A stretch of DNA of 37,003 bases from Terriglobales bacterium (GTDB lineage Bacteria > Acidobacteriota > Terriglobia > Terriglobales > Acidobacteriaceae): the NCBI GenBank assembly GCA_035457425.1, contig DATIBR010000163.1:1-37003 (forward strand). Direction: 5' to 3'. How positions within the stretch are numbered: position 1 is the stretch's first letter; every line of letters starts with the position of its first letter. The notes beneath the pieces were generated by a model. It had not been told where the DNA came from and made no database searches. It was given only the letters and a program-made list of their open reading frames with translations. The position numbers were made by a program, and so were the translations under genes. Shown piece by piece: positions 376 through 29,844 of the stretch.

Positions 376-377
376 CT

Positions 378-405
378 GTGCACTGTCCACCGTGCACTGT
401 CCACT
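378..405. repeat. Period-7 tandem array, GTSCACY type
   Basis: Four 7-base units: GTGCACT, GTCCACC, GTGCACT, GTCCACT. The array ends seven bases before the stop codon (412-414) of the minus-strand kinase gene. The same unit type occurs at 6957, 7017, 15534 and 17295. Confidence 0.85.
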
Positions 406-411
406 GGTTCT

Positions 412-1437: not shown

Positions 1438-1855
1438 TACTTCTCCAGAGGGTTCGTCCCTAAATTTCCGTGTTCGACCAAAGGCCCAATATCGCTTTCA
1501 GGAAGGTACTTCTTACAGAGCTCTTGCTGGACGCAGGCCGGGAGCCGGCCGCCATGCCCCTTTATCTTGCAGTTACCCTGCCAAGCCCCAACCGCACGCT
1601 ACCCCGTAACTCGTTGATTCTGCGTAGGTAAACAGTTGCTGCCCGGGGTACCTGCTGGCCGGCCTTTCACGATGTGAGCACTCCGTTACCCACATCTGGC
1701 ATGACCGCGGGCACTGCGGCCGCCTTCGGCCGCGGCCGTTGGATTTGACCTTCCTCGTGACAAAACAACACGGCCCGCCTGAAGGCGGGCCACTCGCAGC
1801 TCGGAACTCGCAACTCGCAACTCGCAACTCGGAACTCGGAACTCGGAACTCGGAA
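1438..1855. other. Gene-free stretch with palindromes and a heptamer array
   Basis: I see no credible gene here. Bases 1438-1700 are featureless to me. 1716-1738 is a CGGCCGCC-TTC-GGCCGCGG palindrome (copies near 10194 and 14166), 1772-1791 is a GGCCCGCC-TGAA-GGCGGGCC hairpin, and the period-7 array follows from 1791. Confidence 0.6.
1761..1791 (-). terminator. Possible terminator downstream of the HNH gene
   Basis: On the minus strand the hairpin GGCCCGCC-TTCA-GGCGGGCC (1791-1772) is followed after two bases by a T-rich stretch (GTTGTTTTG). The T-run is interrupted, so this is only a candidate; it may simply be a dispersed palindrome. Confidence 0.4.
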
Positions 1856-1860
1856 CTAAT
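1791..1860. repeat. Period-7 tandem array, AACTCGC/AACTCGG type, ten units
   Basis: Units run CACTCGC, AGCTCGG, three AACTCGC, four AACTCGG, then AACTAAT. It is the longest of the period-7 arrays here. The last unit contains the stop codon (1856-1858 on the minus strand) of the HNH endonuclease gene. Confidence 0.92.
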
Positions 1861-2464
1861 AGAACAGGTACTTTCTCCACTTCGCGTCCGACCGCCCGAT
1901 CATCCGCATGATGTGCCGGCTGGTGTGCAGCGTGAACGCCCGCGGCTCCCGGATCAGCTTCATCGCCGCCTCGTGCAGCAACTGGTTCCCCTTGTTGCGG
2001 TTGCACTCCTGGCAGCAGGCCACCAGGTTCTCCCAGCTCGACATCCCTCCGCGCGACCGCGGGATCACGTGGTCGAGCGTGAGTTCCGCCGAGGGCAGCA
2101 GCTTGGCGCAGTACTGGCAGGTGTTGCGGTCGCGCAGCAGGATGTTCTTGCGCGAGAGCGCCCGCGTCTGGTGCGGGATGCGCCGGTACTCCACCAGCCG
2201 GATCACGCTCGGCACCCGCATCGCGATGCGCGCCGCGTGCAGGTAGTGCCCGTTCTCTTCCTCCGTCATCGCCACGCCCTTCAGCACCAGCACGATCGCG
2301 CGCCGCGCCGCGCAGATGTTGATGGGCTCGTAGCTCGCGTTCAGCACCAGCACCGGCTGGTGCATGGGATGCCCGCCGTTCCCGTTCGCCTTCGGCTGCG
2401 GCGCCGCCTGCGTGTGCGGGTTCTGCCGTGCATGGGTTCCGTGATGTGTCCCGTGCTTATGCAT
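1856..2464 (-). CDS. HNH endonuclease family protein
   Basis: The core is a classic HNH fold: a zinc pair CQYC, then [13 protein letters not shown] with the catalytic DH, then [16 protein letters not shown] with the second cysteine pair and the final HNH asparagine. The N-terminal [12 protein letters not shown] and the C-terminal KWRKYLFY are typical of a widespread chromosomal HNH family of unknown physiological role, distinct from homing or restriction enzymes. I chose the ATG at 2464, which overlaps the 3' end of comF by eight bases and gives a His-rich leader; the ATG at 2365 (MHQPVLVLN) would fit the conserved domain boundary more exactly. It is probably co-transcribed with comF. The stop codon lies within a heptamer repeat. 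Confidence 0.82.
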
Positions 2465-6956: not shown

Positions 6957-7037
6957 GTCCACTGTGTCGTCCGTCACCGTCCCATGTTCGCCGCGGTCCC
7001 CGCCTTTCTGTCCCCCGTCCACTGTCCACCGTCCACT
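6957..7037. repeat. Heptamer units GTCCACT/GTCCACC between divergent M28 and OPT genes
   Basis: One GTCCACT at 6957-6963, and three tandem units GTCCACT, GTCCACC, GTCCACT at 7017-7037. The array sits in the divergent promoter region. Confidence 0.8.
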
Positions 7038-7113
7038 GCCTTCTGCTACCATCCAACGTTTGCACCAGGAGCGCCGCACCGCCTGACTGGGTTCCAGATA
7101 ACAAGGAGGAGCC

Positions 7114-10372: not shown

Positions 10373-10669
10373 ATGATCCCGATAAGAGAATCCGCCGGCG
10401 CCGTCACCTTCTCCGTCCGCGTCCACCCGCGCGCGAAGAAGAACGCCCTCACCGGCACCCACGGCGACGCCCTCAAGCTCTCCCTCACCGCCCCGCCCGT
10501 CGAGGGCCGCGCCAACATCGCCGTCATCGAATTCTTCGCTGACCTTTTGCGCCTGCCGCGCTCGTCCATTACCATTGCCGCGGGCCAGGCCAGCCGCAAC
10601 AAGGTCGTCCGCATCACCGGCATCACGGCGAAGGTACTTGCGGAACGCATCGAAGCTGCCCTCCCCTGA
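10373..10669 (+). CDS. DUF167/YggU family protein, 98 aa
   Basis: A compact basic protein with VTFSVRVHPRAKKNALTG, LSLTAPPVEGRANIAVIEF and SSITIAAGQASRNKVVRITG, the full DUF167 (YggU) pattern. The length matches the family. Structures are known for the family but the biochemical role is not. The ATG at 10373 follows GGAGCG as a weak ribosome binding site. The gene follows yggS on the same strand, with a 190-bp spacer filled by palindromes. Confidence 0.9.
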   Translation: MIPIRESAGAVTFSVRVHPRAKKNALTGTHGDALKLSLTAPPVEGRANIAVIEFFADLLRLPRSSITIAAGQASRNKVVRITGITAKVLAERIEAALP

Positions 10670-10672
10670 GTT

Positions 10673-10713
10673 GTCATTCCGAGGAGCCCGCCGTGGCGGG
10701 CGACGAGGAATCT
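10673..10713. repeat. GTCATTCCGAGGAG...GACGAGGAATCT palindrome
   Basis: Starts GTCATTCCGAGGAGCCCGCC and ends GACGAGGAATCT; the inner arm is GCCCGCCGTGGCGGGC. Member of the six-copy family that includes the insertion in comF. Confidence 0.85.
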
Positions 10714-10730
10714 GCTTTTCGGTCGCTCGC

Positions 10731-10758
10731 TACTCGCAACTCGGTACTCGGTACTCAA
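10731..10758. repeat. Period-7 array, four units, just before the POT-like gene
   Basis: TACTCGC, AACTCGG, TACTCGG, TACTCAA; the ATG at 10761 starts two bases later, so the array occupies the place of the ribosome binding site, and no Shine-Dalgarno sequence is visible. Confidence 0.85.
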
Positions 10759-10760
10759 CG

Positions 10761-12050
10761 ATGACCTTCTCTGACCGCCTCACGGAAGTCCGCACCGGCT
10801 TCGAGCGCCCCTTCTGGGTCGCCAACATCACCGAGATCTTCGAGCGCCTCTCCTACTACTCCGTCTTCGCCGTCCTCGTCCGCTACCTCAACGAAGGCCT
10901 CGGCTTCTCCATCGAGCAGGCCGGCACGCTCGGCGGATTCTTCGGCGCCGCCGTCTGGTTCATGGCCATCTTCGGCGGCGCCGTCGCCGACAAGATCGGC
11001 TTCCGCCGCGCCCTCTCCCTCGCCTACTTCATCCTCTCGGGCGCCTACTTCCTGGTCGGCTCCATCGGCGCGCCCTGGCTCGCCCCCGTCCGCAACGCCG
11101 TTCCGCTCGGCCTGCTCGCCGGCGTCATCCTCTTCCTGCCCGCGCTCGGCGTCGCGCTCGTCAAGCCCAGCGTCGTCGGCACCACCGCCCGCGCCTCCGC
11201 CGACAACGTTCGCTCCATCGGCTACTCCATCTACTACACCATGGTGAACATCGGCTCGTTCCTCGGACCCTACCTCGCCGGCTGGGTCCGCGAGCGCATC
11301 AAGAGCGGCCAGATGCAGATCGAAGACGTCTTCCGCATCGCCGCCCTCAGCGTCTTCCTCATGCTCATCGCCGTCCTCATCTTCTTCAAGGAGCCCCGCC
11401 GCTCCGCCGATCAGCCCGTGCCCTCCCTCGGTCAGGTCACGCGCAACTTCTTCACCGTCCTCGGCAACTTCCGCTTCGTCCTCTTCCTGCTCATCTTCTC
11501 CGGCTACTGGGTCGTCTTCTGGCAGCAGTACCTCATCCTGCCCAGCTACGTCGTCAACTACGTCGACTCCACCGCCAACACCGAGTGGATCCTCATCACC
11601 GATCCCATCATCGTCATCTTCTTCACCGTCGCCATCAACGCCGCCACCCGCCGCATCCCCAGCTTCCACGCCGTCACGCTCGGCACCTTCGTCACCGCCA
11701 TCGGATGGCTCGTCATGCCCTTCTGGCACTCCAAGTGGGCCGCCGTCGTCGCCCTCGTCATCGTCGCCACCGGCGAGATCATCCAGTCGCCGCGCTACTA
11801 CGAGTACATCTCCCGCCTCGCCCCCGCCGGCCAGCAGGGCACCTACATGGGCTTTGCCTTCCTGCCCATCGGCATCGGCTCGCTCCTCGGCGGATGGCTC
11901 GCCGGCAAGCTCCTCCACCACTACGGCGAGGTCCTCAAGCAGCCCAACACCATCTGGTACATCGTCGTCGGCATCGGCGTGCTCACCGCCGCCCTGCTCT
12001 ACCTCTACGACCGCATCGTCCAGCCCATGAAGCAGGAGACCGCGTCATAG
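10761..12050 (+). CDS. POT/PTR2-like MFS transporter, 429 aa
   Basis: A membrane protein of the major facilitator fold with about 12 hydrophobic segments. The N-terminal EIFERLSYYSVFAVLVRYL resembles the ExxERFxYY motif of proton-coupled oligopeptide transporters (POT/PTR2), and FFGAAVWFMAIFGGAVADK is the loop 2-3 motif of MFS proteins. The ATG at 10761 was chosen because the conserved region begins about 15 residues later and everything upstream is repeat sequence. Peptide uptake is the likely role and fits the nearby peptidases, but the substrate is inferred only. Confidence 0.85.
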   Translation: MTFSDRLTEVRTGFERPFWVANITEIFERLSYYSVFAVLVRYLNEGLGFSIEQAGTLGGFFGAAVWFMAIFGGAVADKIGFRRALSLAYFILSGAYFLVGSIGAPWLAPVRNAVPLGLLAGVILFLPALGVALVKPSVVGTTARASADNVRSIGYSIYYTMVNIGSFLGPYLAGWVRERIKSGQMQIEDVFRIAALSVFLMLIAVLIFFKEPRRSADQPVPSLGQVTRNFFTVLGNFRFVLFLLIFSGYWVVFWQQYLILPSYVVNYVDSTANTEWILITDPIIVIFFTVAINAATRRIPSFHAVTLGTFVTAIGWLVMPFWHSKWAAVVALVIVATGEIIQSPRYYEYISRLAPAGQQGTYMGFAFLPIGIGSLLGGWLAGKLLHHYGEVLKQPNTIWYIVVGIGVLTAALLYLYDRIVQPMKQETAS

Positions 12051-12146: not shown

Positions 12147-13313
12147 ATGGACCTCCAATCCATCCAGTCCGCCCTCGCCGAGCGCGGTTTCGACGCCTGG
12201 CTCTTCTACGACCACCACCACCGCGACCCCATCGCCTACAGCGTCCTCGGCCTCTCGCCCTCGCTCATGGTCACGCGCCGCTGGTACTACGTCGTGCCCG
12301 CCAAGGGCGACCCGCAGAAGCTCGTCCACCGCATCGAGGCCGGTCACCTCGACCCGCTCCCCGGCGCGAAGACCGAGTACTCCGCCTGGCAGGAGCAGCA
12401 CGAAGGGCTGAAGAAGCTCCTCGCGCCTTACAAGAAGATCGCGATGCAGTACTCCCCCAACAACGCCATCCCGTACATCGGCCTGGTGGACGCCGGCACC
12501 ATCGAGCTCGTCCGCAGCTTCGGCAAGGAGATCGCCAGCTCCGGCGACCTGGTCGCGCGCTTCGAGGCGCAGTGGTCCGACGCCCAGATCCAGACGCACT
12601 TCGCCGCCCGCGACCTCATCGACCGCATCACCCAGGAAGCCTTCCAGGAGATCGGCCGTCGCGTCCGCAACGGCGGCACCCACGAGTACGAGATCCAGCA
12701 GTGGATCGGCGAGGCCTTCCGGCGCGACGGCCTGGTCACCGACGACCTGCCCATCGTCGGCGTCAACGCCAATAGCGGCAACCCGCACTACGAGCCCACC
12801 GCTGCCACCTCCGCGAAGATCAAGCAAGGCGACTTCGTCCTGCTCGACATCTGGGCGAAGAAAGCTCAGCCCGCCGACGCTGTCTACTACGACATCACCT
12901 GGACCGGCGTCGTCGGCAAGCCCACCGACCGCCACCGCGAGATCTTCGCCATCGTCACCGCCGCCCGCGACGCCGGCGTCAAGGCCGTGCAGGACGCCGT
13001 CGCCGCCGGACGCAAGCTCCAGGGCTGGGAGGTCGACAAGGCCACGCGCGCCACCATCGCCGCCCAGGGCTACGAGAAATACTTCACGCACCGCACCGGA
13101 CACTCCATCGGCACCAGCGTCCACGGCAACGGCGCCAACATGGACGACCTCGAGACCCACGACGTCCGCGAGATCATCCCCAACAGCTGCTTCTCCATCG
13201 AACCCGGCATCTACCTTCCCGAGTTCGGCGTCCGCAGCGAGGTGAACGTGCTCGTCCGCAAGGGCTCCGCCGAGGTCACCGGCGCCATCCAGAAGGAACT
13301 GGTCGAGATTTGA
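12147..13313 (+). CDS. M24-family metallopeptidase (Xaa-Pro aminopeptidase-like), 388 aa
   Basis: The N-terminal creatinase-like domain (1-145) is followed by the pita-bread catalytic domain. Metal ligands are visible as D234 (LLDIWAKK), D249 (YYDITW), H319 (HRTGHSIG), E352 (SIEPGIY) and E365 (GVRSEVNV). The spacing between the two aspartates is 15, longer than the usual 11 in this family. No signal peptide is seen, so it should be cytoplasmic. It probably trims proline-containing peptides delivered by the neighbouring transporters. No Shine-Dalgarno sequence precedes the ATG, which lies a few bases after a -10-like box. Confidence 0.92.
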   Translation: MDLQSIQSALAERGFDAWLFYDHHHRDPIAYSVLGLSPSLMVTRRWYYVVPAKGDPQKLVHRIEAGHLDPLPGAKTEYSAWQEQHEGLKKLLAPYKKIAMQYSPNNAIPYIGLVDAGTIELVRSFGKEIASSGDLVARFEAQWSDAQIQTHFAARDLIDRITQEAFQEIGRRVRNGGTHEYEIQQWIGEAFRRDGLVTDDLPIVGVNANSGNPHYEPTAATSAKIKQGDFVLLDIWAKKAQPADAVYYDITWTGVVGKPTDRHREIFAIVTAARDAGVKAVQDAVAAGRKLQGWEVDKATRATIAAQGYEKYFTHRTGHSIGTSVHGNGANMDDLETHDVREIIPNSCFSIEPGIYLPEFGVRSEVNVLVRKGSAEVTGAIQKELVEI

Positions 13314-13333
13314 GGTCCGGATTGTTCTAAGGG

Positions 13334-13375
13334 GTCATGCTGAGGAGTCCGCCGCGGCGGACGGCGAAGCACCTC
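13334..13375. repeat. GTCATGCTGAGGAG...GGCGAAGCACCTC palindrome
   Basis: Copy of the six-member family, with inner arm GTCCGCCGCGGCGGAC, lying 20 bp after the M24 stop codon. Confidence 0.85.
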
Positions 13376-13397
13376 GGGTTTTGAGCCGCGGGAGACT

Positions 13398-13418
13398 GGG
13401 AACGGGAAACGGGGAACG
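13398..13418. repeat. Period-7 array, GGGAACG type
   Basis: Three units GGGAACG, GGAAACG, GGGAACG end seven bases before the ATG at 13426. A different sequence from the AACTCGC arrays but the same period and place. Confidence 0.75.
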
Positions 13419-13425
13419 ATTTTTG

Positions 13426-13836
13426 ATGACCGAAGCCGCTGAACACATCGAAGAGAAGCACTACCCGCTCACCCCGACGGCCATCGTCGCGCCGCTGGTC
13501 GGCTGGCTCATCCCCGGCGGCGGACACTTCCTGCAGAAGAAGTGGACCCGCGGCACGCTCCTCCTGCTCTCCGTCGCCGCCATGTTCTGGCTTGGCATCG
13601 CCATGAGCGGCAAGGTCTACCAGCAGAACACCGGCGACCTGCTCGACATCCTGGGCTTCGTCGGCGAAGCCGGCGCCGGCCTGCTCTACTTCGCCGCCCG
13701 CTCTTCCGATTGGGGCACCGGCGCCATCACCACCGCCAGCGGCAACTACGGTACCGTCTTCCTCATCGTCTCCGGCTTGCTCAACATCGTCTCCGCCATC
13801 GACTCCCACCAGATCGCTCTAGGGAAAAAGCCGTGA
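13426..13836 (+). CDS. Small membrane protein with IPGGGHF motif, 136 aa
   Basis: After a polar N-terminus (MTEAAEHIEEKHYPLTP) come about three to four hydrophobic segments. The motif GWLIPGGGHFLQKKWTRG at residues 26-43 is characteristic of a small acidobacterial membrane family; I believe it corresponds to DUF6677 but could not check. The function is unknown. The ATG at 13426 follows GGGGAACG, part of a heptamer array that may serve as ribosome binding site. A 58-aa membrane protein gene lies downstream, and the pair may belong together. Confidence 0.8.
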   Translation: MTEAAEHIEEKHYPLTPTAIVAPLVGWLIPGGGHFLQKKWTRGTLLLLSVAAMFWLGIAMSGKVYQQNTGDLLDILGFVGEAGAGLLYFAARSSDWGTGAITTASGNYGTVFLIVSGLLNIVSAIDSHQIALGKKP

Positions 13837-13857
13837 GCGCCGCCGCACTCGTGACGG

Positions 13858-13930
13858 GTCATGCTGAGGAGCCCGCCGTGGCGGGCGAGGCCGCGACTTC
13901 TCCAGCGGCCGAGCAGCGACGAAGCACCTT
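13858..13930. repeat. GTCATGCTGAGGAG palindrome carrying a second palindrome inside
   Basis: Outer arms are GTCATGCTGAGGAGCCCGCC and GACGAAGCACCTT. Compared with the sister copies, an additional block, GAGGCCGCGACTTCTCCAGC and the next ten bases, is nested before the right arm, so one repeat seems to have entered another. Confidence 0.75.
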
Positions 13931-13947
13931 GGTTTTCGCCCCCTCGC

Positions 13948-13975
13948 GACTCGCAACTCGGAACTCGCAACTATG
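13948..13975. repeat. Period-7 array containing a start codon
   Basis: GACTCGC, AACTCGG, AACTCGC, AACTATG. The last unit supplies the ATG (13973-13975) of the 58-aa gene. Confidence 0.85.
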
Positions 13976-15528: not shown

Positions 15529-17217
15529 CTACTGTGGACCGTGGACTGTGGACTGGGCACTGACCCAGTAGAACGCCAGCTTCTGCGGCGCGAACTCTCC
15601 CACCTTCGACACCCGCTTCCCGGTCAGGTTCGCGAGCGAATCTTCCACGCCCAGCGGCGCCACCACCATGTGGTTGCCCTCGGGGATCCCGCGCGGCTGG
15701 TCGAAATAGTTCGGGTCGTACCACAGGACCGGCTTCCCGCGGTAGTACGAGAGCCCGTATCCCGCCTGCCGCGGCAGCTTGTAGATCGCCACCTGCGAGC
15801 TCCGGTTGTCGATGCGGTCCAGCGCCGCCGCCACCTCGCGGTACGAGGTCTTCGCATCCACCGCCGGCCCCGCCCCGCGCAGCAGGAACGCCAGCAGCAC
15901 CATCAGCGGCGCCAGCGTGACGAACCGCAGCATCCGCAGCCCGCGCCGCCACAACGTCCCGCTCACCCCGATGAACACCAGCGCCGCCAGCACGCCCGCC
16001 GTCGCGCGCGGCGCGTTCGCGCTCCGCACCAGCGCGTACGGCACCAGCAGCACCCCCGCCGTCAGCGCCGCCGGCACCGCCGCATGCAGCGCCAGCAGCG
16101 TGAAGTTCGCCCGCTCGCCCGCCTTCCGCTGCACGTACAGCGCCGTCAGCATCGTGCACGCCGGCAGCGCCGGCAGGATGTACCCCGGCAGCTTCGACTG
16201 CGAGATCGAAAAGAACACCGCCACGAACACGATCCACGCCACCAGGAACTGACGTATCTCAACCATCGGTGGGGTGGGCGCCGGCGACTCGCCGGCGCGT
16301 CCACGCCAGTTCCTCACTCCGTCCCACATCCCCGCCAGCCAATAGAACGTCCACGGCAGCGTCCCCGCCAGCAGCACCGGCGCGTAGTACCAGAACGGCT
16401 GCTTGTGCCGATACAGGTTGGTCGCAAACCGCGCCACGTTGTGCTCCAGCACGAACACCCGGAAGAACTCCGCGTTCCTCACCTGCACCAGCACGTACCA
16501 CGGCAGCGCCACCGCCAGGAACAGCGCGATCCCCGGCAACCACAGCGTCCGCAGGATGGTCCGCGGCTCGCGCCGCAGCAGCGCATACAGCACCACGACC
16601 GCTCCCGCCAGCGCCGGCGCCACCGGACCCTTCGCCAGCATCCCCAGCGCGCTGAAAAAGTAGAACGCCAGCAGCCAGCGCTTCCCTGGAACTCTTGCGG
16701 GTGCCCCATCCTTTGCGAGCGCGCCTTCCGCGAGCAAAGGGTGGGACTCCAGGTACCACGCCATCCAACTCAGCATCGCGACCGTGAAGCACGCCGCCAG
16801 CAGCATGTCCGGACCGGCGCCGCGCCCGAACCCGATCAGCGCCACCGAGCCGGCAGTCATCAGCGCGCCGTCGAGCCGCGCGCCCGGCACGAACCGCCGC
16901 AGGAACGCCCACACCGCGAACACCGCGCCCATCGCGAACGTCGCCGCCGGCAGGCGTGCCGCCCAGTCGCTCACCCCGAAGATCTTGTAGGAGACCATCG
17001 CCGACCAGTAATAAAGGATCGGCTTCTCGAACCAGTGATGTCCGTAGAGTGTGGGCGTGACCCAGTCGCCGCGCTCCAGCATCTCGCGCGCGATCTGCGC
17101 GTAGCGCGGCTCGTCCGCTCCGACCAGCCCGATCGCCGCCGCCCCGAAGTACAGCAGGAAGAGGCAGGATCCCGCGACCGTCGCGACTTCGTACCAGGTC
17201 TCTTTTTGGCTGTTCAA
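15529..17217 (-). CDS. ArnT/PMT-like glycosyltransferase (GT83/GT39 type), 562 aa, with repeat-derived insertions
   Basis: A multi-pass membrane protein of the GT-C fold. ADEPRYAQIAREMLERGDWVTP holds the catalytic acidic pair in the first periplasmic loop, followed by LYGHHWFEKPILYYW, both typical of ArnT-like transferases using undecaprenyl-linked sugars. About 11-12 hydrophobic segments precede a soluble C-terminal domain. Two segments look inserted: residues about 158-173 (AEGALAKDGAPAR) and about 307-315 (RAGESPAPT). Each is encoded by a palindrome that also occurs elsewhere in this window. The last ten residues (SAQSTVHGPQ) are encoded by a heptamer array that also leads into the stop. 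The acceptor is unknown; lipid A or a cell-surface glycan is likely. Confidence 0.88.
   Translation of the reverse strand: MNSQKETWYEVATVAGSCLFLLYFGAAAIGLVGADEPRYAQIAREMLERGDWVTPTLYGHHWFEKPILYYWSAMVSYKIFGVSDWAARLPAATFAMGAVFAVWAFLRRFVPGARLDGALMTAGSVALIGFGRGAGPDMLLAACFTVAMLSWMAWYLESHPLLAEGALAKDGAPARVPGKRWLLAFYFFSALGMLAKGPVAPALAGAVVVLYALLRREPRTILRTLWLPGIALFLAVALPWYVLVQVRNAEFFRVFVLEHNVARFATNLYRHKQPFWYYAPVLLAGTLPWTFYWLAGMWDGVRNWRGRAGESPAPTPPMVEIRQFLVAWIVFVAVFFSISQSKLPGYILPALPACTMLTALYVQRKAGERANFTLLALHAAVPAALTAGVLLVPYALVRSANAPRATAGVLAALVFIGVSGTLWRRGLRMLRFVTLAPLMVLLAFLLRGAGPAVDAKTSYREVAAALDRIDNRSSQVAIYKLPRQAGYGLSYYRGKPVLWYDPNYFDQPRGIPEGNHMVVAPLGVEDSLANLTGKRVSKVGEFAPQKLAFYWVSAQSTVHGPQ
15534..15561. 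repeat. Period-7 array GTGGACY at the 3' end of the glycosyltransferase gene
   Basis: GTGGACC, GTGGACT, GTGGACT, GGGCACT. It lies inside the reading frame of the minus-strand gene, whose stop codon is at 15529-15531. Confidence 0.85.
16272..16299. repeat. GGGTGGGCGCCGGCGACTCG palindrome inside the glycosyltransferase gene
   Basis: Identical over at least 26 bases to 9334-9360 downstream of the OPT gene. In frame it encodes GRAGESPAPT on the minus strand. Confidence 0.88.
16700..16745. repeat. CCCATCCTTTGC...GCAAAGGGTGGG palindrome inside the glycosyltransferase gene
   Basis: Shares both arms with the copy inside comF (2802-2850); only the centre differs. Encodes AEGALAKDGAP in frame. Confidence 0.87.
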
Positions 17218-17289: not shown

Positions 17290-17562
17290 CTACTGTGCAC
17301 TGTGGACCGTGGACTGTGGACTCCTCATCGCCCGCACCAGCGCCACCACGCTCACCGCCGTCCACGTGATCTCCATGACGGCGAACCCCACCTGCAGCGG
17401 TCGCAGCGCGATCCACGCCAGGATCGCCGCGCCCGCCGCGTTCAGCGCGTTGTACGCCGGCTTGCGCGCGTCCATCCACTTCACCTGGTGCCCCACGTAC
17501 GCCACCAGGATCAGCATCGCGCCGGCCGACGAGAGTATCTGCGTCCCTAATGTGATTTCCAT
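17290..17562 (-). CDS. CBU_0592-like small membrane protein, 90 aa
   Basis: The hydrophobic pattern (GAMLILVAYVGHQ, then AYNALNAAGAAILAWIAL, then FAVMEITWTAVSVVALVRA) with the conserved YNxLNxxGA and ExxW matches the small CBU_0592 family of three-helix membrane proteins, function unknown. The last ten residues (SPQSTVHSAQ) come from a GTGGACT heptamer array and end at the TAG beside it, closely resembling the tail of the neighbouring glycosyltransferase. The ATG at 17562 is 12 bases after the nrnA stop, so it may be the last gene of the rbfA-nrnA transcript. Confidence 0.75.
   Translation of the reverse strand: MEITLGTQILSSAGAMLILVAYVGHQVKWMDARKPAYNALNAAGAAILAWIALRPLQVGFAVMEITWTAVSVVALVRAMRSPQSTVHSAQ
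17295..17322. repeat. Period-7 array GTGSACY at the 3' end of the CBU_0592-like gene
   Basis: GTGCACT, GTGGACC, GTGGACT, GTGGACT, inside the reading frame of the minus-strand gene. Confidence 0.85.
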
Positions 17563-19625: not shown

Positions 19626-19667
19626 TACTCCGTACTCGCAACTCGCGACTCGGAACTCGCAACTCAC
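19626..19667. repeat. Period-7 array, six units
   Basis: TACTCCG, TACTCGC, AACTCGC, GACTCGG, AACTCGC, AACTCAC, between the DUF503 gene and the plus-strand membrane protein that diverges from it. Confidence 0.88.
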
Positions 19668-20763: not shown

Positions 20764-20898
20764 TAAAGCAAGTGGCCGGGCTCTTCGCCCGGCCACTCGC
20801 ACCTCACAACTCGCAACTCGCAACTCGCAACTCCAAAGCAAATGGCCGGGCTCTTCGCCCGGCCACTCGGTACACGGTACTCAGTACTCGGTACTCGC
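20764..20898. repeat. Duplicated hairpin plus two heptamer arrays between convergent genes
   Basis: A 36-bp unit (AAAGCAAGTGGCCGGGCTCT, then TCGCCCGGCCACTCG) occurs at 20764-20799 and again at 20834-20869. Each copy is followed by a period-7 array: CACTCGC, ACCTCAC, three AACTCGC, AACTCCA (20794-20835) and CACTCGG, TACACGG, TACTCAG, TACTCGG, TACTCGC (20864-20898). The second array touches the infB stop codon at 20899. The hairpins (11 bp and 9 bp stems) may end transcription from both sides, but they lack T-runs. Confidence 0.88.
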
Positions 20899-23748
20899 TT
20901 ACGCCGTCAGCTCCGCCGCCACCCGTTCCGTGACGAACGCCTCGATCACGTCGCCCTTCTTGATGTCGCCGTAGTTCGCGATCGAGATGCCGCACTCCAT
21001 GCCGTTGCGCACCTCGCTCACGTCGTCCTTGAAGCGCCGCAGCGACCCGATCTTGCCCTTGTAGACGACCACGTTGTCGCGCAGCAGCCGCACCTCGTTG
21101 TTCTGTTTGATCGTGCCGTCCGAAACCTGGCAGCCCGCTACCGTCCCCACCTTCGGGATGCGGAACGTCTCCTTCACCTCGGCGCGCCCCATGTAGGTTT
21201 CCTTGACCACCGGTTCCAGCAGTCCGGTCATCGCCTTCTTGATCTCGTCCTGCAGCTCGTAAATGATCGAGTGCAGCCGGATGTCGACGCCTTCCTGCTC
21301 CGCCAGTTCGTGCGCCTTGCGCTCCGGCCGCACGCTGAACCCGATGATGATCGCGTTCGACGCCGACGCCAGCAGCACGTCCGTCTCCGTGATCGCGCCC
21401 ACACCCGTGTGCAGCACCTTGATCTTCACTTTGTCCGTCGACAGCTTGTTCAGCGTGTCGCTCAGCACTTCCACCGACCCCTGCACGTCGCCCTTCAGGA
21501 TGATGGGCAGCTCTTTCACGCCCGCCGTCTTGATCTGCTCCGCCAGGCCTTCCAGCGACACGCGGCTCGACTTCGCCAGCGTCGCCTCGCGCGCTTTCTG
21601 CTCCCGGTACCCCGCGATGCCCTTCGCCTTGTCGCGGTCCGCCACCACCACCAGTTGGTCGCCCGCCTGCGGCAGCCCTTCCAGTCCCAGCACCTCGACC
21701 GGCGTCGCCGGCGGCGCTTCTTCCACCGTGTTGCCGCGGTCGTCGAACATCGCGCGCACCTTGCCGAACGTGTTGCCGACCACGAACTGGTCGCCCGCCC
21801 GCAGCGTCCCGTTCTGGATCAGCACCGTCGCCACCGCTCCCCGCCCACGGTCCAGCTTCGCCTCCAGCACCGTGCCGTTCGCCGGACGATCCGGCGCCGC
21901 CTTCAACCCCTGCACGTCCGCCACCAGGCAGATCATCTCCAGCAGCAGGTTCAGGTTCTTCTTCTGCTTCGCCGATACGTCCACGAACACCGTCGTGCCG
22001 CCCCAGTCTTCCGGCATCAACCCGCGGTCCGCCAGCTGCTTCTTCACCCGCTCCGGCATCGCGTCCGGCTTGTCGATCTTGTTGACCGCCACGATCAGCG
22101 GCACCTTCGCCGCCTGCGCGTGGTCGATCGCCTCCAGCGTCTGCGGCATCACGCCGTCATCCGCCGCCACCACCAGCACCACGATGTCCGTCACCTTCGC
22201 GCCCCGCGCGCGCATGCGCGTGAACGCCTCGTGGCCCGGCGTGTCGATGAACGTGATCTCCCGCCCGAACGCCGGCGACCCCTGCTCCGTCACCCGCACC
22301 TTGTACGCCCCGATGTGCTGCGTGATTCCGCCCGCCTCGCCCTCCGCCACGTTCGCCAGCCGGATCGAATCCAGCAGCGTCGTCTTGCCGTGGTCCACGT
22401 GGCCCATGATGGTCACGATCGGCGGACGCGCCGCCCCGCCCCCTTCGCCCACGATCTCTTCCGCGCCCGACTCCACCGCTTCCTTCGCGGCCTGCTCTTC
22501 GAACGTGCTGACGCGCGTGTCGGCGCCGAACTGCCGCGCCATCTCCGTCGCCAGGTTCGCTTCCAGCGTCTGGTTGATGGTCGCGAACACGCCCTTCGCC
22601 AGCAGCCGCGTGATCAGGTCCTTCCCGCGGATCTCGAGCTTCTCCGCCAGGTCCTTCACGCTGATGCCTTCCGTGATGTCGATCGTGCGCGTGATCGGCA
22701 GCGGCTCGGTCGAGAGCGAGAGCCGTGGCGGCGGCACGAAGCCCTTCATCGGGCCTTCCTTCACGCCGCGCGGCACGTAGCGCTGCCCCGGCCGCCGCGC
22801 CGGACCACCCGGACGTCCTGCCGGCCGGCCCGTAGGCGGGCCCATCGGCGCGCCCGGTCCCACCCCGATCGGCCGCACGCCCGTCGGAGAGGTGCGCGTC
22901 GGATGCAGTCTGCGTTCGCCCGGCTTCAGCGGCGGCCGCGCTCCCGGCGCTCCTGGACGCGGCCGCTGGAAGATCGGCTGGCCCGGCACCGGGCGTCCCG
23001 GCGCTGGACGGCCCTGCATTCCCGGACGCGGCCCGATGGGCTGCCCCGGGCGCGGCGGCGCCCCGCCCGGCATTCCCGGACGCGGCGTCGCCGGCGCCAG
23101 GTACACCGGGCGCGGCCCTGTCTGCGGCGTGATCACGCGCCGCTGCGGGCTTGGCGGAGTCGGCGGCGCCTGCGGCGGCGCCGCTTGCTGCGGCGGCTGC
23201 GTCGGAGGTGTGACTTGCACCGGCGCTTGCGCCGGCGGCACTTGTGTGACCGGACTCGGCGTCGGCGGCGGCGCGATCGTCTGCCCCGGCGGAGCCGCCG
23301 GAGGCTTCGGGGTCGCTTGCGATGCCGGCACCACCGTCGCGGCCGGCGGCGGCGTCACGCTCTTGATCGCCGGCGGTGGCGCCGCGGGCGGCGGGGTCGC
23401 CGCCGGCTTGGTCGCCGCCGGCGCCGCGGGCTTCGCCGCGGCAGGCTTCGCCGGCGCCGCCGGTGCCGCCTTCGACTGGATGGCCTTGAGGACGTCTCCC
23501 GGCTTGGAGATCTTCGAGAGGTCGAACTTCGGCTTCAGCTCGTCGGCCGTCGCTTTGTGCGCCGACTTCGATTCCTTGGCCGGCGCCGACGACTTCGCAA
23601 AGTGCTTCCGCACCTTCTCCGCTTCGTCGGCTTCCAGAGAGCTCGAATGCGTCTTCTTCTCGGTCACCCCTACGTCTTCCAGAACGTCGAGGATCGCCTT
23701 GCTCTTTACTTCCAGCTCTCTTGCCAGGTCATTGATCCGGATCTTCAT
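20899..23748 (-). CDS. infB: Translation initiation factor IF-2, 949 aa
   Basis: Residues 1-50 are an IF2_N domain ([20 protein letters not shown]). Residues about 60-340 are a Pro/Ala/Gly-rich spacer. A second IF2_N-like domain follows (363-408, [18 protein letters not shown]). The GTPase domain carries G1 GHVDHGKT (449-456), G3 DTPGH (502-506) and G4 NKID (556-559), then the domains that bind fMet-tRNA and the ribosome. IF-2 places initiator tRNA on the 30S subunit. It follows nusA after a 125-bp spacer that lacks the ylxR gene often found there. The stop codon directly touches a heptamer array. Confidence 0.98.
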
Positions 23749-25472: not shown

Positions 25473-25547
25473 GCGCCGGCCTCTCGCCGGCGGTCGCCCG
25501 GGCGTCTCGCCCGCGCTTCTGGCCCCTGGTCACTGACCACGAGCCAC
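25473..25547. repeat. Palindromes and GTGGTCA-type heptamers in the rimP-nusA spacer
   Basis: 25475-25491 is GCCGGC-CTCTC-GCCGGC and is followed by a GGGCG-TCT-CGCCC arm pair. 25527-25547 holds three period-7 units TGGTCAC, TGACCAC, GAGCCAC that run into the rimP stop codon (25547-25549). Confidence 0.7.
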
Positions 25548-26083
25548 TAGATCTCCGGAACGAGGTTCGCTCGCTCCACGTTGCCCAATTCCACCGCGAT
25601 CACTCGCCGCTCGGGCGCCGGCTTGTTCTTCCGTTTCTCCGGCGTCACGTCCAGCGTCAAGCGGCCCTCGCCGAACGCTTCCAGTCTGCCTTCCCAGTGC
25701 CGGTTGTTCTCCACCGGCTCGCGCGTCATCAGCTTCACGCGGCTGCCGGTGAAGCGCGCAAAATCTTCCGCCTTGCTCAACTTCCGGTCCAGCCCCGGCG
25801 ACGACACCTCCAGCAGGTACGCCCCGCCCGGGATCACGTCCTCCACGTCCAGGATCGTGCTCATCTCCCGGCTGACCGCCTCGCAATCCGAATGCGTCAC
25901 CCCGTACTGCACCAGCTCGTCCGGCGTGCTGCCGGCTTGCGCCGCGCCCGCCTTCTCGATGTACACCCGCAGCAGCCGGCCACCCTTGCCCGCCCCGCCG
26001 CGAAACTCCACGTCGGCGATCTCCAGGCCCAGGTCCTTCGCCACCCGCTCCGCGATCGCCCTCACTTGTTCTTCCAACGCCAT
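25547..26083 (-). CDS. rimP: Ribosome maturation factor RimP, 178 aa
   Basis: ALEEQVRAIAERVAKDLGLEIADVEF, LRVYIEKAG, HSDCEAVSREMSTILDVED and YLLEVSSPGLDRKL (each a RimP hallmark, quoted in parts) identify the 30S maturation factor. The ATG at 26083 starts MALEEQVRAIAERV, matching the family start; further upstream codons would translate the leader hairpin. It is the first gene of the rimP-nusA-infB block. Only seven bases separate its ATG from the end of a terminator-like T-stretch, so expression of the whole block may be set by readthrough of this hairpin. The stop codon is formed at the edge of a heptamer array. Confidence 0.95.
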   Translation of the reverse strand: MALEEQVRAIAERVAKDLGLEIADVEFRGGAGKGGRLLRVYIEKAGAAQAGSTPDELVQYGVTHSDCEAVSREMSTILDVEDVIPGGAYLLEVSSPGLDRKLSKAEDFARFTGSRVKLMTREPVENNRHWEGRLEAFGEGRLTLDVTPEKRKNKPAPERRVIAVELGNVERANLVPEI

Positions 26084-29752: not shown

Positions 29753-29791
29753 GATGTTTGCTTTTTATTCGCCATCATGACTCGCGTTTCT

Positions 29792-29844
29792 GAACCACGG
29801 TAAACCACGGTAAACCACGGTGAAACCACGGTAGAGATCACGGT
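29792..29844 (+). repeat. Five direct CCACGGT repeats in the leader
   Basis: GAACCACGGT, AAACCACGGT, AAACCACGGT and GAAACCACGGT follow without gaps (29792-29832), and a fifth, ATCACGGT, is at 29837-29844. Period is 10-11, about one helical turn. They lie downstream of the predicted transcription start. Confidence 0.9.

Follow-up and report, generated by a model that had tools for sequence, protein, structure and literature searches.

Short tandem arrays of seven-nucleotide units lie at gene edges in the stretch of DNA analysed here (37,003 nucleotides, hereafter the window) and in related genomes. Read outward from the gene edge, many of these arrays carry an AGT core of fixed polarity; nearly half have an inverted partner, the paired arms match in register, and between the same two genes the unit differs from genus to genus. 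We tentatively favour the reading that the arrays are complete or leftover arms of small, genome-specific hairpin-forming elements that fill intergenic gaps. The window belongs to a genome of 3.14 Mb in 192 contigs (G000, the own genome below), grouped with the Terriglobia (Acidobacteriota), which was compared with a genome of the same genus (G001) and one of the same class (G039). Arrays were detected with Tandem Repeats Finder and with a stricter autocorrelation scan. Genes were called by a custom script, and 17 of the 20 window ORFs compared with Pfam had a family.

Window arrays and the dominance of period seven

A first-pass annotation of the window had described twelve arrays with a strict period of seven. 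Tandem Repeats Finder returned a period-7 row for 11 of the 12, the exception being the one at about 25523-25546, and the strict scan retained nine of the 12. The rows span 376-406, 1792-1857, 7008-7038, 10726-10756, 13389-13418, 13943-13972, 15531-15555, 17292-17322, 19634-19665, 20795-20833 and 20865-20897. Period 7 is dominant but not exclusive: the arrays at 378, 7008 and 13389 fit a period of 14 better, and periods 8 and 10 also occur in gaps. The same annotation had placed every array at a gene end or start. This holds for nine of the twelve, which are at most 7 nt away from a called start or stop or overlap it, but not for those at 7010, 19634 and 20796. All twelve are assigned to the minus strand except the array at 13389..13418, which carries no strand.

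Several arrays adjoin stop codons. The AGTGGAC/AGTGCAC array at 376..406 is separated by 5 nt from the stop of gene 412-1437 on the minus strand, with a GC hairpin and its T-run beyond the array. The longest array of the window, about nine units of AGTTCCG/AGTTGCG at 1793..1861, overlaps the stop of an HNH-family gene (1856-2464); a hairpin, GGCCCGCC..GGCGGGCC, with a T-rich run lies 3' of it on the minus strand. Two AGTCCAC arrays are themselves coding: that at 15530..15562 forms the last codons of the minus-strand PMT_2-family gene 15529-17217 and sits on its stop codon TAG, and that at 17292..17323 forms the C-terminal end of a minus-strand 90-amino-acid ORF (17290-17562), adjoining its TAG. 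The AGTACCG array at 20865..20899 abuts the stop of infB (IF-2) at 20899. Its neighbour, AGTTGCG at 20796..20838, lies in a gap between convergent genes, 57 nt from the closest start or stop. Next to it on the minus strand, in the 3' direction, comes the hairpin GTGGCCGGGC..GCCCGGCCAC, of which a near-identical second copy is found 3' of the array at 20865 on the same strand. A degenerate three-unit member recognised by eye, AGTGGCT CGTGGTC AGTGACC at 25523..25546, abuts the stop of the rimP gene (25547-26044).

Three further arrays, all found by Tandem Repeats Finder, adjoin starts. Reading outward, AGTACCG/AGTTGCG at 10726..10757 stops 3 nt short of the start codon of an MFS-family gene (10761-12050), and AGTTGCG at 13942..13973 extends into the start codon ATG of an ORF at 13973 that is short and has weak support. 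The degenerate GGGAACG/GGGAAAC array at 13389..13418 lies 7 nt 5' of the start of a DUF6677 gene (13426-13836). It is the sole window array with G-tracts in most units (GGGAACGGGAAACGGGG), and GGGAAAC arrays of a similar kind are present in L017 and L035. Between divergent genes are AGTGGAC/GGTGGAC at 7008..7038, 74 nt from the nearest start, and AGTTGCG/AGTTCCG at 19634..19665, 59 nt from the nearest start there. It is noted that three arrays are immediately preceded by a hairpin-like sequence and then GACGARGNANCT..TTTT (10669-10726, 13313-13389 and 13836-13942), and that the last of these sequences matches a different gap, in L011, over 92 nt at 80%.

The first-pass annotation had proposed counting period 7 against periods 5, 6, 8 and 9, and period 7 proved the commonest. 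In 736,234 bases of the own genome outside the window, 44 non-coding arrays had period 7, against 0, 0, 10 and 3, respectively; period 10 gave 9, and periods 11 and 13 gave none. Leaving aside multiples of 7, periods 8 and 10 came second and third. The window itself contributed seven non-coding arrays at period 7 and one at period 10. At a stricter cut-off, a 315-kb sample including the window held 17 real period-7 arrays, compared with none in a single third-order Markov draw. G001 had 29 arrays of period 7, five of period 23, and four each of periods 8 and 10. Because several stretches of G039 and some of G001 had been chosen where arrays were already known, the counts were redone without them; G001 then gave 19 at period 7, five at 23, four at 10 and three at 8. 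The G039 counts, 20 at period 7 and nine at period 10, fell to only eight and five. The non-coding share of the arrays in the three genomes was 51 of 69, 29 of 30 and 20 of 22. Tandem units of seven nucleotides thus exceed both chance and other periods, and they are mostly intergenic. In the planctomycete stretches period 9 was commoner than 7, and no period-7 array was found in the stretches of Marinirhabdus, a gammaproteobacterium and a Caldilineaceae, three of the eight genomes sampled outside the class.

Arrays of other periods were also noted. Those of period 8 and 10 carry their own units, such as CACTGGTT and GATGAACGCA, and by eye several lie near gene edges and several form inverted pairs. 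In the window, a period-10 array of four AACCACGGTA units is located at 29789-29827, and more period-8 and period-10 arrays are found across the genome sample. Tandem GC hairpins of period 23 (GTAGCGCCGGCG.. type), which recall REP elements, lie in gaps at L034 219-260, L043 17752-17792, L051 8635-8677, L056 4122-4169 and L059 8475-8524 and 14966-15007.

Placement, AGT polarity and inverted partners

Placement was evaluated on 121 arrays from the three genomes, from which 16 inside called genes and four without a measurable gap were excluded. Of the remaining 101, in which both arms of one hairpin enter as two arrays, as they do in the main polarity counts, 65 overlap a gene edge or lie within 10 nt of one. 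About 28 would be expected from random placement of these arrays in their own gaps. Stops account for 51 of the 65 and starts for 14. Seeding of an AGT unit by TAG stop codons was considered and not adopted, since the junctions (19 TAG, 13 TAA, 12 TGA) showed no clear excess over all genes (507, 326 and 418).

When near-edge Terriglobia arrays of the three genomes are read outward, from edge to gap, an in-phase rule gives AGT:ACT = 36:3. The ratio is 34:3 with one vote per neighbourhood and 30:3 when the window is excluded. It should be mentioned that 33 of the 72 near-edge arrays have neither AGT nor ACT, which counts against the hairpin-element reading. A rotation-only model of 66 near-edge arrays scored 267, compared with 199 ± 5 after random strand flips, a score reached in 0 of 200 flips; the result was also 0 of 200 for the stop side alone and for the start side alone. 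With one array per distinct unit, the score was 125 against 108 ± 4 (0 of 200).

The unchanged rule was applied outside the Terriglobia to 40 blind stretches from eight genomes. These genomes had been chosen for having an AGT-type array somewhere, a choice that does not itself bias direction. The outcome was 13:0, also with one vote per neighbourhood, while 10 of the 23 near-edge arrays of these other phyla had neither triplet. The votes came from Cyanomargarita (9), a Bacteroidetes genome (2), Scytonema (1) and Alcanivorax (1), and the share of 9 of 13 from Cyanomargarita alone counts against the hairpin-element reading. Farther from edges no polarity rule was seen: Terriglobia arrays gave 9:5 at 16-60 nt and 1:4 beyond, and the others 2:3 and 7:7. 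A search for five-unit AGTNSYN loci gave, among the matches listed (80 named), 37 with AGT outward and 14 inward within 40 nt of crude gene calls; also among the matches listed, 16 of 87 AGTNSYN arrays were inside ORFs. A 7×4 matrix trained on Terriglobia did not transfer to other phyla (14:14). The full matrix fails outside the class, and therefore only the core is common to the groups.

The first-pass annotation had regarded the unit sequences as unrelated. About half of the near-edge arrays share the AGT core at fixed polarity, contrary to that view; the rest are left undecided by the AGT/ACT rule, and its narrower statement, that no single sequence accounts for every unit, stands. A common heptamer grammar from the unit consensus alone is not claimed, since it fades and then disappears as redundancy is removed. 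The score per array was 5.58 against 4.08 ± 0.17 for all 34 arrays, 5.29 against 4.39 ± 0.29 (below or at the null maximum) for 22 different units, and 5.27 against 4.96 ± 0.35 for 13 well-separated units.

An inverted partner scoring above 30 shuffles was found for 47 of 105 arrays, and a second direct copy for 11. For 40 of the 47, the partner is on the side that faces away from the closest edge, as would in part be expected because the gene side is coding. The 58 arrays with no detectable inverted partner count against the hairpin-element reading. The arms of 28 pairs had 660 matches in their own unit order, compared with 644 ± 5 when units were permuted (0 of 60), indicating in-register matching. 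Gaps between co-oriented genes had a median folding z of -3.4 with an array (37 gaps) and -0.45 without (81 gaps; p = 1.6e-4); in convergent or divergent gaps the folding gain with an array was not significant. Among 25 distinct hairpins, seven come within 15 nt of both flanking genes, 14 come this close to one of them and four to neither. At least five T in the 8 nt after an arm, on either strand, were present in nine of the 25 paired hairpins, a count made without a control. Identical arms recur within genomes and the loops mostly differ between loci; among 157 gap pairs with a match, it continued well beyond the arrays in only 16.

In the hairpin-forming element that we tentatively propose, each arm would consist of a few heptamers whose unit, read from edge to gap, is often A-G-T-n-n-n-n (AGTNSYN in these Terriglobia), with the reverse complement in the opposite arm, and the gap would fold into one long stem beginning near the stop (or start) codon. 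Each genome would have a few unit families of its own, spread across many gaps by some agent. Selection for pairing might maintain the likeness of the arms, or one arm might serve as the template of the other. Over evolution any one gap would see its unit replaced as the hairpin architecture recurs, and slippage could afterwards lengthen some arrays. Unpaired arrays would be leftovers of such elements, and the stems might affect transcripts.

Unit turnover in orthologous gaps and possible dispersal within genomes

The gap after infB provides an evolutionary test bed, where the stem recurs and its letters change. IF-2 was detected in all 31 genomes; 30 loci were returned, of which 29 were readable past the infB stop. 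The strict scan found a period-7 array there in seven of the 29 (G000, G001, G009, G003, G004, G006 and G034, the last from another family of the order). Heptad-like arms were recognised by eye, below threshold, in G005, G011, G014 and G015, and the other 18 loci had no heptamer array. A motif search identified the same next gene after infB in four genomes, and the gap in each is an inverted pair of heptamer arms: G009 (AGTTTCC, folding z -4.9), G003 (AGTCGCC, -8.6), G004 (AGTTCTC, -6.2) and G006 (GGTCGTT, -8.5). With both flanking genes unchanged, these four genera thus have stems of different letters, and the two arms stay matched in each. The gaps of G000 and G001, with the unit AGTACCG/AGTTGCG, have no inverted pair; they contain single arms and then a GC hairpin (z -4.2 and -2.9), and the gene after infB in G000 is different and convergent. 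The further folded infB gaps, of 13 in all, gave z values of -2.4 to -5.2 in G005, G011, G014 and G015, -1.6 in G010, +1.0 in G018, and -5.2 in G007, which has other hairpins.

Among 25 orthologous gaps compared between the own genome and G001, 21 had no array, three had an array in only one genome and one had it in both. At about 9435 in L009 of the own genome, the stop and start of two co-oriented genes are flush, exactly where G001 has a 54-nt heptamer-bearing segment (L044 4794-4847). Insertion at an empty site could not be polarised for this pair, as the gene pattern was matched in five of 41 genomes, the own genome among them, and of these only the own genome was flush, with TAA/TAG. Of three pairs of sites displayed in this comparison, L002/L053 was left out because its gap was wrong.

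Between neighbouring units, positions 4-5 of 52 AGT-phased Terriglobia arrays showed 50 C-G or A-T swaps, 10 transitions and seven other transversions (23, 10 and 5 with one vote per array), and positions 1 and 6 showed A-G (24) and C-T (27) changes. One thought is that such swaps might disfavour pairing that is shifted by one unit. The swap pattern was absent in 28 AGT-phased arrays from other phyla. Alternation of G and C variants within arrays was strong in two congeneric genomes (z 3.97; 45 distinct 31-mers in 63 runs) and not significant in the own genome, G001 or G039. RNA wobble as the source of unit variation was rejected, since stop-side and start-side arrays show no difference.

The unit families are genome-specific and recur at many loci. 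One 31-mer is present at three places in G061, where variants are so few that chance repeats are possible. Within one genus, runs of at least three units (first minus second count) numbered 104 in G113 and 16 in G083; the same kind of comparison gave 15 in G197 and 6 in G169, with none in three others. Taken together, the families, the G061 31-mer and the differences in number within a genus suggest an element that disperses within genomes. The first-pass annotation had offered slippage, or an unknown enzyme, instead of one spreading sequence. This may be a false choice: the long perfect arrays in G169 and G238 show that slippage acts too, on top of the dispersal indicated within genomes. Regarding a possible mover, the Y1 transposase family (PF01797) has three matches in the own genome. 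A RAYT is not supported as a required mover, since no Y1_Tnp match was found in the array-bearing genomes G053 (8 array-pattern matches), G100 (48, with 21 for the control, in a fragmented draft) and G101 (18, contributed by two long arrays), two of them weak cases.

Related repeats and competing explanations

The arrays resemble several known repeats. REP/REPIN are genome-specific small hairpins in gaps, with dispersed copies and inverted pairs, and Bertels and Rainey are said to have reported in 2011 that RAYT transposases move them. The elements proposed here would share these features, but their stems consist of tandem heptamers and no GTAG foot was recognised. In filamentous cyanobacteria, Mazel reportedly described in 1990 the STRR, heptanucleotide tandem repeats in gaps, and Elhai is said to have found in 2008 small dispersed repeats embedded in heptamers. 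STRR and the present arrays are both heptanucleotide repeats of gaps with different unit sequences, and we know of no polarity rule for STRR. The kinship with cyanobacterial heptanucleotide repeats suggested by the first-pass annotation is supported by 14 arrays from Scytonema and 25 from Cyanomargarita, all in blind stretches, and by the same placement published for Xanthomonas and Nostoc. According to Rehm 2015 (PMC4692102), the G-rich heptamers of these two genera lie near genes with strand bias, stop-codon overlap, inverted pairs (70-75 cases in each Xanthomonas) and a preference for four units. Our arrays agree with these repeats, GGGNATC and GGGGA(C/T)T, in being intergenic, start- or stop-adjacent heptamers with an outward strand bias, stop-codon overlap and inverted pairs. 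As placement, strand bias and inverted pairs are already published there, the kind is known. The differences lie in the units. Those of Rehm 2015 are G-rich and are explained by G-quadruplexes, whereas ours mostly lack G-tracts and many are AGT-cored; a tract of at least three G in each unit is absent from the main window units, 13389 excepted. Unlike the Xanthomonas and Nostoc heptamers, our unit differs between genera within the same gene pair. By the published strand bias, the Nostoc unit GGGGA(C/T)T (PMC4692102) would read ACT/ATT outward, an exception to the AGT rule that counts against the hairpin-element reading.

TAACTGA is another heptamer, which MacGregor 2015 (PMC4679880) reports as direct repeats in Beggiatoaceae, cyanobacteria and Bacteroidetes. 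In BOGUAY most of these immediately precede starts and are oriented so that AGT is read outward (TCAGTTA), and one Flexibacter set is reversed, just downstream of a stop. The Microcystis sets are mixed in orientation, which counts against the hairpin-element reading. TAACTGA is one fixed unit, with 169 direct sets and only one indirect repeat, interpreted as sites for translation regulators; the window units are also heptamers but are not TAACTGA. (AGTTATC)n is present in the Scytonema stretches. We found no accepted reason in print for the abundance of heptamers. In a search that covered few subscription journals, no title or abstract stated an AGT polarity or unit turnover at one junction, and both appear to be new. 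A rule on polarity and hairpins that holds beyond a single phylum would unite odd motifs as one testable phenomenon, and would remove the G-quadruplex from the general explanation.

Plain slippage microsatellites, arising anywhere by 7-base slips in replication and cleared from genes by selection, are a possible though somewhat unlikely explanation. The idea is that of Mrazek 2007, who is cited in MacGregor 2015 (PMC4679880) for heptamers being the most abundant long simple repeats in most genomes studied; the long perfect arrays of G169 and G238, the mostly non-coding location and the seldom-shared orthologous gaps of the own genome and G001 agree with it. However, slippage predicts neither a fixed direction of AGT relative to gene edges nor arrays closer to those edges than random positions within their gaps would give, and it predicts neither inverted partners nor in-register matching of the arms; the C-G and A-T swaps that dominate positions 4-5 in Terriglobia, a pattern absent in other phyla, also speak against it. 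In another reading, the stems would be RNA hairpins selected to end, protect or separate transcripts, with heptamers as an easy route to a long stem. Co-oriented gaps with arrays fold much better than array-free ones, most near-edge arrays (51 of 65) sit at stops, and the window arrays at 1793 and 20865 each have a stop on one side and a terminator-like hairpin on the other; in Xanthomonas, according to Rehm 2015 (PMC4692102), transcripts start or stop more often at G-quadruplex-capable repeats than at incapable ones. The hairpins might plausibly help to end or separate transcripts. Yet with a T-run in nine of 25 hairpins, counted without a control, most are probably not canonical intrinsic terminators, wobble-type variation does not differ between stop-side and start-side arrays, and selection on RNA does not by itself explain shared unit families in each genome or the AGT core, so that we hold this explanation to be quite doubtful.

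Fixed polarity and a fixed core would also be expected if the arrays were bound, as DNA or RNA, by a protein that recognises AGT at seven-base intervals. At 10726 and 13942 the window arrays adjoin start codons, and members of the S1, Csp and Csr families are named as candidates for TAACTGA upstream of starts in MacGregor 2015 (PMC4679880). Such sites are nevertheless improbable as the explanation: each genome has many different units, and the polarity tracks the gene edge at starts and stops alike, which fits a palindrome better than a transcription-directed site. G-quadruplex elements like those of Xanthomonas and Nostoc share the placement, strand bias, inverted pairs and heptamer period, and G-tracts are indeed found at 13389 and in the GGGAAAC arrays of L017 and L035. 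The main units AGTTSCG, AGTACCG and AGTCCAC have no run of three G, the GGGAAAC family being the exception, and this explanation is highly improbable. The hairpin-forming elements could also have a wider extension, as an unnamed, bacteria-wide class of gene-edge hairpins with AGT-polar heptamer stems, spread by an enzyme, with sister classes of period 8 and 10 and with the Xanthomonas, Nostoc, Beggiatoa and Bacteroidetes repeats as members or cousins; we consider this extension unlikely.

No common length mode was seen among the arrays. Runs with three, four and five AGTs numbered 24, 21 and 8 in G000, 10, 8 and 20 in G118, and 26, 25 and 47 in G039, and summed over 15 genomes they were 454, 296 and 191. 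Runs of two, three and four full units in sampled non-coding DNA of G000 numbered 6, 2 and 10. A backward-pattern control gave 63 matches in G122 and 216 in G235 (Okeania), exceeding the pattern itself and indicating that other heptamer families are abundant in these two genomes.
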